From Lachnospiraceae bacterium (GTDB taxonomy: Bacteria > Bacillota > Clostridia > Lachnospirales > Lachnospiraceae), in contig JAEEOJ010000060.1 in NCBI GenBank assembly GCA_016284175.1, positions 1 to 45,754 on the forward strand: a stretch of 45,754 bases of DNA, written 5' to 3'. This document shows, in pieces, positions 36,057 to 44,351 of this stretch. Below the pieces are notes generated by a model, which searched no databases, was not told where the DNA came from, and was given only the letters and a program-made list of their open reading frames with translations. The position numbers and the translations under genes are program-made. Within the stretch, counting starts at the first letter, position 1, and each line of letters opens with the position of its first letter.

Positions 36057-37307
36057 TTATTTTATGTCTCCGGCATTAAGTTCGTTGTACTTTGCAATCA
36101 TGTAATCAACGGTATTCTTTGTGCCATTGCCATAGCCCTGCCAGCATTCGTTTCTGACTTCTTCTCTGCCCTTGGCGAACTCATCGCTCTCGATGCAGGA
36201 GTCGATTAAGTTCTTGATATCCGAAAGATTGTCGGATGTAATCATCTTACCGAGTCTCGGAAGTGCGGACAGTGTCCAGATGTCTTCGTCGAGCCACCAG
36301 AGGTCGTAAGCCGATGTATCAAACTCTGTATCAGTGTAGATGACGGGCTTGTCGTAAACAAGCGCAAAGTCAAATACTACACCCGAGAAATCCGAGATAA
36401 GGATATCGGATCTTTTAAGAACTTCAAAGTTATCTCTGTCGCGGTTCCATTCAAGCTGCTCTGAATCGGGGAATTCTTTCATCAGCGAATCCATCAGTTC
36501 TTTTTCCGCGGTAAAGGATTGAGGATGAGGTCTGACGGTTACGTGATATCCTGTATCAAGCAATGCTTTTATGATCTCGCCTTTGAACTTGTTAAAGAGC
36601 GAAGTCTCGCCCCAGGTGGGTGCGATAAGAACTGTGCGTTCGTGCTTAAGAGTCTCGCCGCTTTCTTTAAGTCTTTTGACCATTTCATCCATGTAAGGAA
36701 TACCGGTCATGTGCAGGTCTTTCGCAGGAAGGTTTCGCAGTGCCTCAAGTTTTCTTATCTGTCTTTCGTGGAAATCTCCGGCGATTAAAACCGCATCGTA
36801 GTAGTCTAAACCGAACATTCTGTAGAAATTGATTTCACCGGCTGCATGAGGAATGTGGATATAGTAATCCACTTCTCTCGAGCGCTTCCACTGGTAGACA
36901 TCCAGTCCCGGAGTCGTCGCAAGAACAACCGAAGCGTTTAGGAAATTAAGCTTTGAAAAAGCTTTGTTTCCTTCGCCCAAATATCTCGCCTTCACATGAT
37001 CCAGGCCACAGGAAAGACCCGGGTCGTCTGCGGAGGCTGTCAGATATTCAACATCAATTCCTCTGTCGTTGAATTCCCTGCAGATCGGCTCGAAGGTATT
37101 CCAGTACCTTTTATCATCCGCAAAGATAACGTAGGGAATTTTGTCGCTCTTTATTTCTTCTTTTTTGCCGCTTGTAAGTTTGAAGCGTATCTTTACCCAG
37201 GCCACCCTGATAATGTATCCGACTGCGCCGAATACACCGATAAGCACTGCAAAAAGCATGCTTCCCGTTCCGGGGTCTATGTAAAGCAGTAAATTATCAG
37301 TCGACAT
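36057..37307 (-). CDS. Membrane-anchored TagF-like CDP-glycerol glycerophosphotransferase family protein
   Basis: This 416-residue protein has an N-terminal membrane segment (residues 5-36) carrying YIDPGTGS, a short motif often found in envelope-polymer proteins, then a cytoplasmic glycerophosphotransferase-type domain. Visible family motifs are HIPHAAGE (151-158), APTWG (229-233), RPHPQS (259-264) and SDFSGVVFDFA (305-315), covering the catalytic His and the CDP-ribitol/glycerol-binding region of TagF/TagB enzymes. The likely reaction is transfer of glycerol phosphate or ribitol phosphate to a polymer or lipid-linked acceptor. It starts 9 bp after the YidC-sulfatase fusion gene, so they are co-expressed. 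The exact polymer is unknown. Confidence 0.85.
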   Translation of the reverse strand: MSTDNLLLYIDPGTGSMLFAVLIGVFGAVGYIIRVAWVKIRFKLTSGKKEEIKSDKIPYVIFADDKRYWNTFEPICREFNDRGIDVEYLTASADDPGLSCGLDHVKARYLGEGNKAFSKLNFLNASVVLATTPGLDVYQWKRSREVDYYIHIPHAAGEINFYRMFGLDYYDAVLIAGDFHERQIRKLEALRNLPAKDLHMTGIPYMDEMVKRLKESGETLKHERTVLIAPTWGETSLFNKFKGEIIKALLDTGYHVTVRPHPQSFTAEKELMDSLMKEFPDSEQLEWNRDRDNFEVLKRSDILISDFSGVVFDFALVYDKPVIYTDTEFDTSAYDLWWLDEDIWTLSALPRLGKMITSDNLSDIKNLIDSCIESDEFAKGREEVRNECWQGYGNGTKNTVDYMIAKYNELNAGDIK

Positions 37308-37316
37308 TCTTTCTTC

Positions 37317-40082
37317 CTATCTGTTGTCTTTAAGAATCTTCCAGTTGTTTTTATCTCTCATGTCTCCTTCAACGGAAAACCATATTCCGTCGATGAAAGT
37401 TGTTCCATTATTTGTAATTACGTCAGGATTGTGCGAACCGAGAATCTTCTGCGGTTCATGTTTCGCATCGTTGGTAATAGCCTTGCCCGTAAAAGGATTG
37501 ACAGGGTTTTCCACGATTCCGTCAAGCGCATACACGGGAACATCGCCGTTTGTCATAAACTGCTCGTCGGTCGTAAATCCGTGGCTGTCAAAATCTTTTA
37601 TCATAAGCAGAGGATAATAACTTTCGATATCCGTCTCGTCATCACCGCTGCCGTCAATATCAAACATATCGTTGTGGTAAACCCACTTTCCGTGGTCCGA
37701 AACAATTATGATTCTCGTATTGTCGTATACGCCCTGTTCTTTTAAGTAATCAAGCCATTCGCCGATTCGAAGCATCGCGCACATATTAACCTGATAGCTT
37801 CCGATCTGAACATCGTTTTCCATATCAAGCGTTACGCCGTCAACTGTGTATCTGTCCGCATGCTCTTTTTCATAGCCTTCGTTGTCGACATAGTATGCGA
37901 CCTCGTACTCGGGCTCCTTGAAATAAATCGGCCAGTGCGTAAGCTCGTTGTCTATCATTAAGAAATTATCCGAAGCATCATCGCTTATCTCGGTCATATC
38001 AATAAGGTTGGTGATTGTCAGATAATCTTCCATAACCTCTTCGTTGATACCGGTGCATCTGTAAAGACCGTCTTTTACGATTGCAGTCGAATTCTTCATT
38101 TCACTTAAGAATCTCTCGTTTCCGATACTCTCGTTGTACGAACCGTGATTGTAAAGATGATTCTGAATTGCCAGCGGCGCAATCTTAGTAATCGAATAGC
38201 AGAAGAAGTTTCTGAAGTTTCTGTCGGAGACGTTCACCTTCTGTGCATTCCAGTAGTAACCCTTGGTGATAAACGTCTTCATGCCCGGATAATCGCTGTA
38301 AATCGAAAGGTCGGGAACCGTACTGTATCCTGCATAAGGAGGGTCGCAGACGGTAACATTGTAGCCCTGCTCATAAAATAAAGCGGGCATAACTTTTAAG
38401 GCCTCATCATGCTTGTCTCGTAAAAGTTCCGTATCCCTCTTGTTCATCTCTTCGGGCGTATATTCGTATCCGCCGAAAATCGCAGGTGCACCGTAGTTGG
38501 TACAGAGGCCGTGAGATATGGTGTTCGGATAATATGTGAAGCCGTCGTAAATTTCCTTTAATTCGGGCTTTTCGTTCACGAAGTAAGGAATGTATTCGTT
38601 CATTCCTCGATCGAGCATGAACACAATTACGTTTTTGCCACCGGTACTTAAGTTAAACGAAGGCTTTTCCGTATTGACTGATTCGATAACGGACTTAAGG
38701 CTCCTGATTTCTTTCTGGATTGCTCCGCAGTTAATCACGGACATTCCGAATATCGCAAGAGTGCCTGCAATCAAAAGCACTCTTAATTTCTTGCCGAGCA
38801 AAAGGGTTAAAGCCACGCCTGCTGCCACAACAAGCACGATAACCGCAAGGTTGATTAATATCAGTTTATGTGGTGCAGAGTACTCTTCGGTATACGCAAG
38901 CGCACTGTTTAAGATGACATTGTTCTTTCCAAAGAACATATAGTTAACGGTTGCCACAAAACAGAGCACGCACATCACAACGTTTAAAATGCTCTTTATT
39001 TTCTTGTCCAACAGACCATAAAAGACAGAGAACCACACTAAGAAAAGACCGATTGCAATGCATGCGGCACTTACGACAAACCAGAGCGGATTCAGGAAAT
39101 GATAAATATCCACGAACTCCTGCGGCGAGGATTTTATAACCGCAGAAGGAATGAGAATACCGGTCAGAATTGTCATATAAATTCCGCCGAGTAAGAAAAG
39201 CTTTCCGTCGGTTTCTTTTATGTCTTTTTTCTTTAAAAGATTCTTCTTTGAAACAATCGAAATTACCAGAGGCACAAAGCAGATAAACGCAAGCAGCACA
39301 AGGATAAGTAAAAACGATTTGCTGCCCGTCTTCTTCATGACGAAAGGAAGAGATCCTAAAAGAATCACGCCCACTGCGGAAAATGCAATATTCAAAACCT
39401 TCTTTGCGGTCTGCGATTTGTAATATATCGTTTTAACCAGTGAGAAAAGGTTGTTTAAAGTCCAGTAGAAAACGAGTCCCGCGGGGGATTTGTATAAAAA
39501 GAAAAAGAAGAAAATCGCCATCGCATAAAGCTGGATTTTGTTCTTCAGAGGATATCCTTTCGTAAACACGATACAGGATATAAGGTTCAGTGATGTCATC
39601 ACTATGGGTAAAAGATTAATTGAAAAAGCACCGAGAGTAATCAGGGCATCGGGAGCGCCGAGATTAGCTATCGGACCGAATGATACATTCTGAATTGCAT
39701 CAAGATGGGATAAGAACTGATATGCGGCGATGAAAAAAGGTATCTCCAAAAGAAGAGAGACAGAACTTTTGAATACATCCGTAGGCTTGTATCCGTTCTG
39801 TCTGTAATATGTTTGCAGCATCATCATTCTTTCGTCGCCTTTGAAAGTCTTTCTGATGTGTGCAACACCTTTTCTTAATTTGTTTTCGATATTCCTTTCT
39901 TCTTCCTGAACCGCATCCGCTCTGTTGTATAAAGGAAGAACCAAAAGGTTCATTGAAAGGCTTAACGCAATGATCGAAAGACCGGGATTGTTAAGCCCTT
40001 TTTGTGCTACAGTAAAAACGTATTCGAAAAAAATCTGCAACGGTCTTATCATGACCGTGTAAATCACTTGAAAAACACTCAT
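37317..40082 (-). CDS. YidC/Oxa1-like domain fused to a sulfatase-superfamily (LtaS-like) domain
   Basis: A 921-residue protein in three parts. Residues 1-225 match YidC/Oxa1/Alb3 insertases: GLSIIALSLSMNLLVLP, a cytoplasmic charged hairpin, and the last helix pair with PAGLVFYWTLNNLFS (200-214). Residues 228-455 hold about six more membrane helices. Residues 480-921 are an extracytoplasmic alkaline-phosphatase/sulfatase-fold domain: VIVFMLDRG with metal ligand Asp491, candidate nucleophile Thr528 in HGLCTNYGAP, and IIIVSDHG with Asp796 and His797. In LtaS-type enzymes such a Thr carries a glycerophosphate intermediate. The YidC part has Asn45 where Gram-positive YidC has an essential Arg. 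The ribosome binding site is weak; the gene starts 2 bp after ctp. Possible role: phosphoglycerol transfer to an envelope polymer or protein. Confidence 0.85.
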   Translation of the reverse strand: MSVFQVIYTVMIRPLQIFFEYVFTVAQKGLNNPGLSIIALSLSMNLLVLPLYNRADAVQEEERNIENKLRKGVAHIRKTFKGDERMMMLQTYYRQNGYKPTDVFKSSVSLLLEIPFFIAAYQFLSHLDAIQNVSFGPIANLGAPDALITLGAFSINLLPIVMTSLNLISCIVFTKGYPLKNKIQLYAMAIFFFFFLYKSPAGLVFYWTLNNLFSLVKTIYYKSQTAKKVLNIAFSAVGVILLGSLPFVMKKTGSKSFLLILVLLAFICFVPLVISIVSKKNLLKKKDIKETDGKLFLLGGIYMTILTGILIPSAVIKSSPQEFVDIYHFLNPLWFVVSAACIAIGLFLVWFSVFYGLLDKKIKSILNVVMCVLCFVATVNYMFFGKNNVILNSALAYTEEYSAPHKLILINLAVIVLVVAAGVALTLLLGKKLRVLLIAGTLAIFGMSVINCGAIQKEIRSLKSVIESVNTEKPSFNLSTGGKNVIVFMLDRGMNEYIPYFVNEKPELKEIYDGFTYYPNTISHGLCTNYGAPAIFGGYEYTPEEMNKRDTELLRDKHDEALKVMPALFYEQGYNVTVCDPPYAGYSTVPDLSIYSDYPGMKTFITKGYYWNAQKVNVSDRNFRNFFCYSITKIAPLAIQNHLYNHGSYNESIGNERFLSEMKNSTAIVKDGLYRCTGINEEVMEDYLTITNLIDMTEISDDASDNFLMIDNELTHWPIYFKEPEYEVAYYVDNEGYEKEHADRYTVDGVTLDMENDVQIGSYQVNMCAMLRIGEWLDYLKEQGVYDNTRIIIVSDHGKWVYHNDMFDIDGSGDDETDIESYYPLLMIKDFDSHGFTTDEQFMTNGDVPVYALDGIVENPVNPFTGKAITNDAKHEPQKILGSHNPDVITNNGTTFIDGIWFSVEGDMRDKNNWKILKDNR

Positions 40083-40084
40083 TT

Positions 40085-41350
40085 TTAGTTAATTTTATCC
40101 TTCAGGTAGTCCATTGCGTAATCCAACTGATTGTCGGTTTGATCCTCAAGATATTTTTCTGAATCAAATTTAACTTCTTCGTCGGGTTCAATACCGATTT
40201 TATGAATATTGTTGCCGTTGGGCGTATAGTATTTGCTTGTGGTAATCTTGATAGCCGAACCGTCGCCCAAAGGTAAAATGCTCTGGACAATACCTTTGCC
40301 GTATGTGGTGGTTCCGATAAGTGTACCTATACCGTAATCCTTGATGGCACCTGCCATGATTTCGGAAGCCGAAGCAGAACCGCCGTCAATTAAAACTACC
40401 ATGGGAACGTCAATTTTTTTCTTGCCGTCGCATGAAAATTCATTGCGGTTGCCGTACTTGTCTTCTGTATAAACAATCAGTCCCTGAGGAAGAAGTTCGC
40501 GACAGATATCAACTACTACATCGAGGTTTCCGCCGGGGTTACCTCTTAAGTCGATAATAAGTCCGCTCATATTTGCGCTTCTTGCAGCATTGATGGCTTC
40601 TTCAAACTGACTTGTTGTAATCGCATCAAACTCGGTAATCTTTATGTACCAGATACCGTTTTCTTTTTCGCTGTACTCAACGGTAGGAGTATCAATTTTT
40701 CTTCTCTCAAGTGTAACGTCTTTCTTGCCGTCAGCACCTTCTATGGTAAGTGTAACAAATGTACCTTCCTCACCTCTGATGTATGATACAACTTCGTTTA
40801 AAGTCTTGCCGTACATTTCCATGCCGTCAACAGCCACGATGTAATCGCCGACATTTAATTCTCCGCTTTCCTTTGCGGAACCGCCTTCGATAAAGCTCTC
40901 AATCGTAGCATATCCGACTTCTGTATCCATTCTTAAGTATGCGCCGACACCTTCGTAATTGCCGTTCCAGCTGGCGGTCATATCCTTGTACTCTTCGGGT
41001 GAGTAATAAACAGTGTAAGGATCGCCCACGCCGTTCATGATACCGTAATAAAGACCGTTTTCAAGGTCTTCGTCATCAACATCCTCGTAATAATATGCTT
41101 TGATATATTTTTCGAGCTGGTCTATTTTGCTTAAAGTATCCGAATTTATAAAACTGCTCTGTGCGGTAAGTTTTTCGTACTTGTCTTTGTTTAATCCGAT
41201 TGTCAGTCCGACGATTAATAAAACTATTAAAATAATCGATCCCGAACCGATAATAAGTCCTAAGAAAAATACAAGAATTGTTCTGATTACTGCCCAGACT
41301 CTGCCTTTCTTTTTAGGCTTTTCCTGAGCGTTTAAATTTGTGTTGTCCAC
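40085..41350 (-). CDS. S41 family C-terminal processing peptidase (GTG start)
   Basis: This 421-residue protein has a cytoplasmic Lys-rich start, one membrane helix (about 22-53), then an external part with a PDZ domain (about 130-205) and the S41 protease domain. The catalytic Ser327 lies in GGSASASEI and the Lys352 in YGKGIVQS, 25 residues apart as in Prc/CtpA; both are present, so it should be active. Such proteases trim or degrade wall hydrolases and secreted proteins; a target among the neighbouring M23 hydrolase, FtsX or YidC-sulfatase proteins is plausible. The start is GTG at 41350 behind TTGGAGG. Confidence 0.94.
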   Translation of the reverse strand: MDNTNLNAQEKPKKKGRVWAVIRTILVFFLGLIIGSGSIILIVLLIVGLTIGLNKDKYEKLTAQSSFINSDTLSKIDQLEKYIKAYYYEDVDDEDLENGLYYGIMNGVGDPYTVYYSPEEYKDMTASWNGNYEGVGAYLRMDTEVGYATIESFIEGGSAKESGELNVGDYIVAVDGMEMYGKTLNEVVSYIRGEEGTFVTLTIEGADGKKDVTLERRKIDTPTVEYSEKENGIWYIKITEFDAITTSQFEEAINAARSANMSGLIIDLRGNPGGNLDVVVDICRELLPQGLIVYTEDKYGNRNEFSCDGKKKIDVPMVVLIDGGSASASEIMAGAIKDYGIGTLIGTTTYGKGIVQSILPLGDGSAIKITTSKYYTPNGNNIHKIGIEPDEEVKFDSEKYLEDQTDNQLDYAMDYLKDKIN

Positions 41351-41397
41351 AACCGGCCTCCAATGATAAAGGTTTTTCTTTCAATGATTCAATGATA

Positions 41398-42714
41398 TTA
41401 AGGTTTAACTATATAATTCCAAGGCGATACGTATTCGCCGTTTAATCTTACGCTGAAATGGAGATGGTTACCTGTACTTCTGCCCGTAGAACCTACGAAA
41501 GCGATAACGTCTCCTCTCTTAACTTCCTGGCCTTCCGATACGTTGAGCTTGGAAGCATGCATATAAACCGTATACAGTCCGCCGCCGTGATCAATCATAA
41601 CGTAGTTACCCATAGCACCGGTGTATGATGCGGAAACAACTTCTCCGTCATACGCTGCCAGAATGTTCGAACCTGCGGGTGCCGCAAGATCGACGCCGTT
41701 ATGGAACAGATTAATCTTAAGCGTAGGATGAATTCTGTTACCGAAATCCGAAGAAACGTATTTGTATGCGGGACACGGCCAGCAGAATGCGCCGCCGTCG
41801 TAAACACGCATATTTTCAAGAGCTTTCTTTTCCTGGGCTACTATTCTTTCAAGTTCGGAAATCGTTGCGTTCTGCTCTGCAATTTCCGCCTCCAATTCTC
41901 TAAGGGCTCTTTCCTGGTCGCCTATCGCATTCTCAACAGACGCAATCTCAGCCTCTTTCTGGCTGATAAGTTCTTCTATCGCTGCCTGCTCGTCTTCTGC
42001 GGCTTCCTTGGTTGCCTGTAAGAGTGCTTCTTCTTCTTCAAGCTGTTCTTCGCAGATTGTTACATATTCAACGGTTTCCTGATATTCCTTAAACATTCTG
42101 TCGTCATATTTCGAGAGATCCTCAATATAATCCATCTGATTCAGGAAATCACCAAGACCTTTGGAATTTAAAAGAAGTTCAAGATAGAAACTGTCGCCCT
42201 GCTCGTAGATTGCCTTAACTCTCTTTTTCATGCACTCATACTGGTTGTCTTTAATAGCGATTGCTTCCTCGAGATCTTTTTTGGTTTCCTCGATCTGTTT
42301 TTCTTTTACGGCAATCTGACCTTTTAAGTCTGCGATTTTATCTTCTATGGCAACAACCTGGGCGTCAAGTTCGGAAACATACTGGGAAAGATCTGCCTTG
42401 CTGTTTTCGAGAGACTGTTTTATTTTTTCGACATTCGTTTTGCCTTTTGCAAGCTCATTCTTTTCGTTCCTTGCAGAACTGATTGCAGCCTCTTTTTCTT
42501 TTATGGACTGTTCGAGAGCGCTCTTTTCGGCGTTCTTTTTATCCTTTTCCTCGTCATCCTTTGAATCATCGCCTGTTTCAGTCGTTGTCTTATCGGATGA
42601 ATCGGTAGGATTGGCAGAAACTGTAGCGGAAAACGGAGTCGAAAATAAAAGTCCCATTATCAAAACCGGAATAATAATTTTGATTACCAGTTTGTTAACT
42701 TTAATTCGACTCAT
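41398..42714 (-). CDS. Coiled-coil M23 (LytM) murein hydrolase, FtsEX partner
   Basis: This 438-residue secreted protein has a signal peptide (cleavage near Ala34), a long coiled coil (about 50-300) like EnvC and PcsB, and a C-terminal LytM domain. The zinc ligands are complete: His338 and Asp342 in HNGVD, His419 in HLH, plus the catalytic His386 and His417. Unlike E. coli EnvC, which has a degenerate domain and activates amidases, this should cut peptidoglycan peptides itself. It is 13 bp after ftsX, fitting control of its activity by the FtsEX ATPase at the division site. Confidence 0.94.
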   Translation of the reverse strand: MSRIKVNKLVIKIIIPVLIMGLLFSTPFSATVSANPTDSSDKTTTETGDDSKDDEEKDKKNAEKSALEQSIKEKEAAISSARNEKNELAKGKTNVEKIKQSLENSKADLSQYVSELDAQVVAIEDKIADLKGQIAVKEKQIEETKKDLEEAIAIKDNQYECMKKRVKAIYEQGDSFYLELLLNSKGLGDFLNQMDYIEDLSKYDDRMFKEYQETVEYVTICEEQLEEEEALLQATKEAAEDEQAAIEELISQKEAEIASVENAIGDQERALRELEAEIAEQNATISELERIVAQEKKALENMRVYDGGAFCWPCPAYKYVSSDFGNRIHPTLKINLFHNGVDLAAPAGSNILAAYDGEVVSASYTGAMGNYVMIDHGGGLYTVYMHASKLNVSEGQEVKRGDVIAFVGSTGRSTGNHLHFSVRLNGEYVSPWNYIVKP

Positions 42715-42727
42715 AAAAACTCCGAAA

Positions 42728-43618
42728 TTAAACTTTCAAATGTTTGCGAACCGTAAAGAAACTTCCGACAAAACCGATTCCCACACCAAGTACAAGCGAG
42801 AAAGGAATCAGATATGTGAATATTTCAAATGCGGGCATAAATGTCAGGAACGAAAGGAAAGCAAACTTATCCGTAATTAAATCTGTGACAATTTCGTACA
42901 GATAGTACAAAACTCCCATGGGAATTGCAGCACCGATAAGTCCCAAAATCATTCCTTCAAATACGAAGGGGGCACGCACGAAAAAGTCGGTGGCGCCTAC
43001 ATATTTCATAATCGTAATTTCTTCCTTACGAACGGAAATACCCATCGTAACCGTATTGCTGATAAGGAATATACTTACCGCAAAGAGGATAACTATAATT
43101 CCTATAAATACATAAACCAAAACCATATTGATACCCGAAAGCGTATCTGCGGTAAAGTCTGATTTGTTGATTTTTCTGACACCGTCGACACCTTCGAGAT
43201 AATTTACAAGTTCACTCTGTTTGGAAACATCGCCGAGATAAATCTGGTAGTTTGCGCAGTTCTCAAGAGGGTTCTCAGTGAAGCCTTCAGCATATTCGCC
43301 GAGCTGAACCGAGAATTTTTCCCATGCTTCCTCAGCTGTAACGAGTTCGTATCTTGCAACCTCGGAACGACGTCCGATCATATCGCCGATTTCATCGATA
43401 CGCTCATTGGTAATTCCTTCCTCAAAGAATACCGTAATGGAAACATTCTGCTCTGCGTTCTGAACTATATTCCAAACATTGAATGCTATAGCATAAAAGA
43501 TACCGAATACGAAAAGACAGGCTGAAATGGTGGCTACCGTTACAAATGCGAACCATTTGTTTTTGAATATGCCAAGGATGCCCTGTTCGATGGTATAAAA
43601 GAAAGTTCTAATCTTCAT
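42728..43618 (-). CDS. ftsX: Cell division protein FtsX
   Basis: I start it at the ATG at 43618, 8 nt after GGAGG, rather than at 43651; the gene then overlaps ftsE by 11 bp. The 296-residue membrane protein has four membrane helices: one near residues 20-50, an external loop of about 120 residues that in this family binds the coiled-coil hydrolase, and three more, with the conserved VRKEEITIMKYVGAT cytoplasmic coupling segment between them. It transmits ATP hydrolysis by FtsE to the wall hydrolase outside. Confidence 0.96.
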   Translation of the reverse strand: MKIRTFFYTIEQGILGIFKNKWFAFVTVATISACLFVFGIFYAIAFNVWNIVQNAEQNVSITVFFEEGITNERIDEIGDMIGRRSEVARYELVTAEEAWEKFSVQLGEYAEGFTENPLENCANYQIYLGDVSKQSELVNYLEGVDGVRKINKSDFTADTLSGINMVLVYVFIGIIVILFAVSIFLISNTVTMGISVRKEEITIMKYVGATDFFVRAPFVFEGMILGLIGAAIPMGVLYYLYEIVTDLITDKFAFLSFLTFMPAFEIFTYLIPFSLVLGVGIGFVGSFFTVRKHLKV

Positions 43619-44351
43619 CGAAATAACCTCCGTTCTCGGCATCGGAAACAATCATACCCTGTCTTATAGTAACTACTCTCTTCTTCATCTCATTAACGAG
43701 TTTTTCGTTGTGAGTAACTACTACAACAGTAGTGCCGTTTTCATTGATGGTCTCCAAAAGACGCATGATTTCCTGTGTGTTGTAAAGGTCCAGGTTACCT
43801 GTAGGCTCGTCAGCAAGAAGAAGCTTGGGCTGGTTAACCAAAGCTCTTGCTATAGCAACCCTCTGCTGCTCACCGCCGGCAAGCTGCTTGGGTTTAGCCT
43901 TATATTTTCCGGCAAGTCCTACGAGGGAAAGCATGCTCGGAACGTTGGTTCTGATTTCTCTTTCGGATTTCTGGGCGATTCTCTGTGCGAATGCGACATT
44001 CTCATACACGTTTCTGTCTTTTAGGAGCCTGAAGTCCTGAAAAACAACTCCGAGCGTTCTTCTGAACTTCGGAATTTTACCGTGCTTGATTGTCATAAGA
44101 TTGAATCCGTTAACGAATATCGTACCGCTGTCTGCTTTAAGTTCTCTTAAAAGCAGCTTTATAAGTGTGGATTTACCCGCACCTGAAACTCCGACGATAA
44201 ATACGAATTCGCCCTGCTTAACTTTCAGATTGATATTGGAAAGAGCGGGAACACCGTCGGAAAATGTTTTGCTTACATCGTCAAGATAGATGGCGTAATC
44301 GGCGATTTCATCCATGGCCGAATCGCGTCTTCTTCTCTTCTTCTCTGCCAT
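43608..44351 (-). CDS. ftsE: Cell division ATP-binding protein FtsE
   Basis: This 247-residue ABC ATPase carries Walker A GVSGAGKST at 54-62, the signature LAGGEQQRVAIARAL at about 157-171, Walker B LLADEPTGNLD and the switch histidine VVVTHN. It has a basic N-terminal extension of about 20 residues (MAEKKRRRRDS); the ATG at 44351 has TTAGGAG upstream, with an alternative Met at residue 13. It works with FtsX and is followed by its membrane partner and the murein hydrolase. It starts 18 bp after the PucR-type regulator gene. Confidence 0.97.
   Translation of the reverse strand: MAEKKRRRRDSAMDEIADYAIYLDDVSKTFSDGVPALSNINLKVKQGEFVFIVGVSGAGKSTLIKLLLRELKADSGTIFVNGFNLMTIKHGKIPKFRRTLGVVFQDFRLLKDRNVYENVAFAQRIAQKSEREIRTNVPSMLSLVGLAGKYKAKPKQLAGGEQQRVAIARALVNQPKLLLADEPTGNLDLYNTQEIMRLLETINENGTTVVVVTHNEKLVNEMKKRVVTIRQGMIVSDAENGGYFDED

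Follow-up and report, generated by a model that had tools for sequence, protein, structure and literature searches.

The window, by which we mean the whole stretch of 45,754 nucleotides that was analysed, carries on its minus strand a gene (37317..40082) for a 921-residue protein in which a YidC core, a membrane part and a sulfatase-fold domain are fused, as judged from domain matches, residue invariance, the structural model and fold matches. Residues 1–222 (39417..40082, minus strand) form a YidC/Oxa1-like five-helix core, with a PF02096 match over residues 34–222 and a fold match to YidC (3wo7_B), in agreement with the original prediction, which had placed YidC/Oxa1 in residues 1–225. That prediction had also counted about six extra helices; further membrane helices are indeed present, and their number, from the model, hydropathy and loop charge, is predicted to be seven (residues ~223–455; 38718..39416, minus strand), which gives 12 predicted helices in total. 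The remaining part (residues ~481–921; 37320..38642, minus strand) is a sulfatase-fold domain that is predicted to lie outside and contains D491, T528, H716, D796 and H797. The partner gene (36057..37307, minus strand), only 9 bases downstream of the fusion, encodes a TagF-like (PF04464) membrane-anchored GT-B transferase. The two genes are referred to below as the module. On the same strand, genes for an S41 protease, an M23/PcsB-like hydrolase (both by Pfam) and putative ftsX and ftsE precede the module (40085–44351); an S41 gene lies directly before the fusion in 7 of the 46 fusion loci described below (L020, L021, L022, L023, L025, L026 and L057).

LtaS-type enzymes have a Thr at the nucleophile position, and such a Thr is typical of transferases and not of formylglycine sulfatases. 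The domain of the fusion matches PF00884, has the sulfatase fold and carries both the Thr and the metal ligands; D491, T528, D796 and H797, the residues singled out at the outset, are all intact and occur unchanged in each of the 53 aligned rows. The six proteins that were compared (those of the window and of locus L114, and separate partner proteins) also all keep the Asp, Thr, His and Asp-His positions. LtaS chains were found among the fold matches of this domain, the matches shown being at most 17% identical to it. LtaS has a five-helix membrane part before its catalytic domain and no other domain, and the fusion departs from this layout in having the YidC core and seven helices ahead of the catalytic domain. 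It therefore resembles the LtaS-type and EptA/PptA-type transferases of the alkaline phosphatase superfamily in its fold, its Asp/Thr/Asp-His site and the membrane part in front, but differs from them in the YidC core, the 12 predicted helices and the company of a TagF-like partner and of genes for CDP/CMP headgroups. PptA, itself a member of this superfamily, offers a precedent: it puts phosphocholine on pilin, with phosphatidylcholine as the proposed donor. In the fusion loci, Lic-like activation genes adjoin a sulfatase-fold protein.

TagF-family enzymes act on CDP-linked donors. The partner protein of the window matched PF04464 above the cut-off and has a GT-B fold with RPHP and SDFSG-type motifs like the TagF/TarL CDP-polyol transferases, but it is shorter and has one N-terminal membrane helix. 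In a profile search it was distant from known relatives (Cps3D, E 6e-8; TarL, E 0.0018), and we infer that its substrate is probably not CDP-glycerol. Active-site residues are conserved in both enzymes of the module. The link of the fusion to TagF-like genes, anticipated earlier, held across the genomes surveyed: a PF04464 gene on the same strand and within 300 bp of a fusion was present in 37 of the 46 loci, and 6 of the 9 loci without such a neighbour end at a contig edge beside the fusion. One locus, from a Saccharofermentans MAG (L043:1673-15579), has an expanded arrangement in which five tandem YidC-sulfatase paralogues follow a single TagF-like gene. A related membrane protein of ~550 residues is encoded upstream of the module in nine loci (L039, L040, L042, L043, L045, L047, L049, L053 and L064), seven of which also hold a small protein of 165–183 residues; the L042 copy of the larger protein ends in DUF4214.

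The 46 loci came from a contig scan and represent about 42 genomes, four of which contributed two contigs each. The carriers are gut and rumen bacteria, including culturable Lachnospiraceae, and 10 of the loci are from records not labelled as MAG or uncultured. The fusion could in principle be an assembly error or a chance joining of two genes, since the genome of the window is a draft of 148 contigs with a contamination value of 5.11. However, the same architecture was found in 69 distinct rows of at least 840 residues, of which L008 and L015 overlap and come from a single protein. Many assemblies are represented, some of them of isolates, which refutes this explanation almost beyond doubt and confirms that the fusion of a YidC domain to a sulfatase is real. 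Whole-genome samples showed that its occurrence is patchy. In the family sample, 10 of 150 genomes matched the fusion at E 1e-10, and seven of these were counted as YidC-sulfatase fusions (G000, G004, G022, G036, G049, G052 and G109), G052 being included although Pfam gave PF02096 alone in its incomplete L010 piece. The three not so counted have an ordinary YidC with a periplasmic domain (G097), a separate sulfatase (G135) and a short fragment (G081). G120, which belongs to the same genus as the window genome, gave no fusion match in this sample. At E 1e-20, matches were obtained in 12 of 391 genomes of the class sample and 3 of 398 of the phylum sample, some genomes belonging to both; one genus accounts for 8 of the 12.

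We then compared the N-terminal core with the YidC/Oxa1/Alb3 insertases (PF02096; B. halodurans YidC2 and E. coli YidC), to which the fusion adds seven helices and an outward enzyme. The five-helix YidC fold is complete, and the PF02096 score is well above the cut-off (77.6 bits against 35), while that for NCBIfam TIGR03592 is slightly below it (80.5 against 84.3). The fusion-type cores form a clade of their own, apart from the housekeeping YidCs compared, and where they have the polar residues N156, T163, Q184, T208 and N210, the 18 housekeeping rows mostly have others. N45 of the fusion aligns to R366 of E. coli YidC, which we take to be the positively charged residue of the groove. Asn occupies this position in 69 of 69 fusion rows and, in a second comparison, in 15 of 16 (the other having Gln). 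The test is a blunt one, as the 18 housekeeping rows carry Tyr (7), Arg (5), Asn (3) or Lys (2) here, Tyr or Asn in 10 of them. Loss of the groove Arg was accordingly dropped as a main argument for changed function: the housekeeping YidC of the host has Tyr, and most of the others compared are without Arg. A separate housekeeping YidC is present in 18 of the 19 genomes examined, the exception being G052, whose genome is 84% complete.

A YidC core is also fused to the other enzyme. Four genomes (G022, G051, G086 and G135) encode a YidC core joined to a TagF-like domain; Pfam places the core and PF04464 in one protein in G086 and G135, and the proteins of G022 and G051 are 66–67% alike over this arrangement. 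A separate Thr-type sulfatase-fold protein of 551–565 residues adjoins this fusion in G086 and G022 and lies on another contig in G135; the stretch around the fusion in G051 contained none. Among these separate proteins, that of L119 scored below the PF00884 cut-off (19.9 against 25) and that of L012 above it (41.2). G052 offers a third architecture (L157:10413-12773), in which a main-clade YidC core is joined to the other, shorter sulfatase-fold type with its active-site residues kept. For a tree of 39 rows, a partial housekeeping YidC of G135 (L183) and a duplicate of the L157 protein (L179) were left out. The YidC-sulfatase cores (16 and that of G052) and the four YidC-TagF cores fell on separate branches, each with 100/100 support; the latter were placed among the housekeeping rows, and the stems are long. 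Holding the two types of core together gave p-AU 0.047, and so a single fused YidC ancestor is not supported by the tree, though it is only marginally rejected. Since YidC cores occur fused to one or the other of two enzymes of one pathway, the core quite probably cooperates with both of them.

Next, we considered the genes around the fusion. Genes of the LicC/PntC sort, for nucleotidyltransferases and headgroup synthesis, were found in 14 of the 46 loci within the stretches covered, which reach at most ~10 kb on either side, and the stretch scanned contained no headgroup gene in the other 32; the counts of genes found are lower bounds, because overlapping shorter ORFs were removed before the scan. 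Six of the 14 have an NTP-transferase fused to a CobD-like PLP domain, with matches below every equivalog cut-off. The CobD-like part would be a decarboxylase making a phospho-amine, and the whole protein may convert a phospho-amino acid to a CDP-amine. This type of protein (e.g. L028:6857-8701) is widespread in the family, occurring in 19 of 150 genomes, mostly without the module. Four loci have a LicC-like gene with a choline/ethanolamine kinase, accompanied in two by an EamA transporter, and two have an NTP transferase alone. L049 has a full Ppd-Ppm-PhnW-PntC set next to the module, relatives of genes of the window genome, and L056 has an iron alcohol dehydrogenase (below every cut-off), a nucleotidyltransferase-Ppm fusion (TIGR02320, 397 bits) and Ppd (TIGR03297, 464 bits).

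Two known systems are called to mind. The LicC-like and choline kinase genes beside the module in four loci recall the Lic-1 phosphocholine pathway (LicA, LicB, LicC and LicD), the Lic names being used by analogy; unlike in Lic-1, a scan of 30 neighbour proteins found no LicD, and the window genome gave none at E 1e-5 either. The Ppd-Ppm-PhnW-PntC runs beside the module in L049, L106 and L114 resemble the Pnt pathway (Ppm, Ppd, AEP transaminase and PntC). The runs of L106 and L114 are full AEP gene sets, and that of L108 is of the hydroxyethylphosphonate type. Module and Pnt-type pathway thus share one gene cluster in L049, L106, L114 and L117, the last being from the family sample. In G004 (L155), a TagF-like gene lies inside the phosphonate run itself, in the order Ppd-PntC-Ppm-TagF-like-PhnW.

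Ten further genomes outside the first set of loci were met after the idea had been formed (G307 was left out as matching L055). In 20-kb stretches, headgroup genes were present in six of the ten (G529, G458, G262, G284, G441 and G843) and absent from four (G207, for which some fusion loci only were covered, G234, G408 and G389). The window genome, which is 95% complete, has the module on contig C36 and the phosphonate genes on contig C122, so the link here is one of co-occurrence only. On C122, Ppd, Ppm and PhnW exceed the NCBIfam cut-offs (TIGR02320, TIGR03297, TIGR03301), and the fourth gene (L072:4200-5090) encodes a PF00483 nucleotidyltransferase with an N-terminal winged-helix (MarR_2/HTH_24) domain, which is PntC-like by context and has no NCBIfam match at 1e-30. 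As LicD (PF04991), the usual transferase, was not found in this genome at E 1e-5, the module becomes a natural candidate for its role. The genome also encodes two long sulfatase-family proteins on C79 and C95; they look LtaS-like in layout, and their first motifs aligned poorly.

We measured the association in the 150 genomes of the family sample, taking as module-bearing the 10 genomes, the window genome among them, with YidC fused to either enzyme. At least one of three pathways (phosphonates, CDP-choline and the CobD-like fusion) was present in 9 of these 10 against 25 of the 140 others (Fisher p 5e-6), the union of pathways and the thresholds having been chosen after the matches were known. 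For the sulfatase-fusion genomes alone, the figures were 7 of 7 against 27 of 143 (p 2e-5). The signal comes from the enrichment of PEP mutase, which by itself was found in 6 of 10 module genomes against 10 of 140 (p 9e-5; threshold E 1e-50, giving 16 of 150 genomes, with one, G129, below the family cut-off). The CobD-NTP pathway alone was not enriched (2 of 10 against 17 of 140, p 0.37; threshold >400 bits, 19 genomes among the 97 listed), nor was choline kinase alone significant (1 of 10 against 1 of 140, p 0.13; threshold >300 bits, 2 genomes among the 28 listed). G051 is without any of the three pathways as defined, with a weak NTP-transferase match (46 bits) near its YidC-TagF fusion. The sample is in part not independent of the loci from which the idea arose, G049 being, by length, the same contig as L033. 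As 17 genomes with the CobD-NTP protein and 10 with PEP mutase are without the module, these pathways do not need it.

From this gene company, the module's overall role is likely to be the decoration of the cell surface with headgroups. More specifically, we propose, with a probability of about one half, that the products of the two genes form a headgroup relay across the membrane. In its first step, a cytidylyltransferase like PntC or LicC would supply CMP-aminoethylphosphonate, CMP-hydroxyethylphosphonate, CDP-choline or a CDP-amine. The membrane-anchored TagF-like enzyme on the cytoplasmic side would then take the phospho or phosphono headgroup off the nucleotide and attach it to a lipid carrier or a lipid of the membrane. 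The headgroup could next cross to the outer leaflet through the lipid-open groove of the YidC core and be passed to the fused enzyme, whose outward sulfatase-fold domain, to judge from its active site, would load it on Thr528 and transfer it to a surface polymer. The outward position of one enzyme, the inward position of the other and the lipid scrambling reported for YidC together suggest such a lipid step and a conduit role for YidC; according to a preprint (PMC10491306), lipid scrambling was seen with E. coli YidC in vitro and with the Oxa1-family proteins tested in silico. The complete lipid-relay mechanism, built by analogy, has slightly less than an even chance of being right. The original interpretation, an envelope enzyme whose insertase part presents a lipid or peptide substrate to the catalytic domain, is partly supported. 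The fusion and its conservation, the TagF-like pairing, the conserved active-site residues, the link to headgroup pathways and the alternative fusion were all shown by computation; the lipid step is an analogy.

The PF00884 and PF04464 matches, the Thr position known from LtaS and the LtaS chains among the fold matches would suit a glycerol-phosphate transferase, in which the sulfatase-fold domain uses phosphatidylglycerol as LtaS does, the TagF-like enzyme makes a teichoic-like polymer from CDP-glycerol and the headgroup pathways merely share envelope clusters; the dlt-like set found upstream in L029 (genes for AMP-binding, MBOAT and DltD proteins) points the same way. However, the genome already has the two other long sulfatase-family proteins with an LtaS-like layout by reading, the genes nearby are of the cytidylyl headgroup and phosphonate kinds, and the TagF-like gene of G004 sits inside a phosphonate run, so we regard this explanation as unlikely.

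The intact YidC fold raises another explanation. YidC assists polytopic membrane proteins, and with a full fold and a PF02096 match, the core might be a built-in insertase that helps to fold its own helices, the tandem paralogues or the partner and takes no part in catalysis. Against this stand the separate housekeeping YidC in nearly all the genomes examined, the occurrence of YidC cores fused to a TagF-like domain with no further membrane part by Pfam, and the separate clade with its distinct polar residues; we consider a purely assisting role improbable to a similar degree. Still less probable is a one-step transfer in the cytoplasm, where the TagF-like enzyme would load a lipid-linked glycan in a LicD-like manner and the YidC-sulfatase would only trim or move the product outside. 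The use of CDP-linked donors by the TagF family agrees with it, as does the direct use of CDP-choline as donor by LicD described in an excerpt of PMC10434233. The Thr at the nucleophile position in the window protein and five others is, on the contrary, what a transferase would have, and up to five fusion paralogues per TagF-like gene, as in the Saccharofermentans locus, fit several acceptors better than trimming.

We offer a wider proposition tentatively and with somewhat more doubt than belief: that a YidC-type fold was turned, probably more than once, from protein insertion to service as a lipid-headgroup conduit linking inside TagF-like and outside Thr-type enzymes, that CMP-phosphonates, CDP-choline and CDP-amines serve as donors, and that the module could provide the missing last steps of phosphonate tailoring where LicD is absent. 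PMC6697681 describes these tailoring steps as enigmatic or unknown, mentions LicD-like transferases in some clusters and states that the bulk of bacterial phosphonate capacity serves cell surfaces. Compared with the Pnt clusters that have LicD-like transferases, the YidC-sulfatase/TagF-like pair is a different candidate. No title or abstract among the matches listed in our literature search, which left most subscription journals and full preprints outside its reach, describes such a fusion.

What is new here is the gene company of the fusion, i.e. its link with pathways that activate CDP- and CMP-linked headgroups. This company suggests that these bacteria decorate their surface with small phosphorus-containing groups, rare phosphonates included, and makes the module a concrete two-gene candidate for the transfer and export of surface phosphonate groups. 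If it is true that the YidC core moves lipid headgroups, this would give a biological use to the lipid scrambling by insertases that was seen in vitro, as excerpted from PMC10491306.
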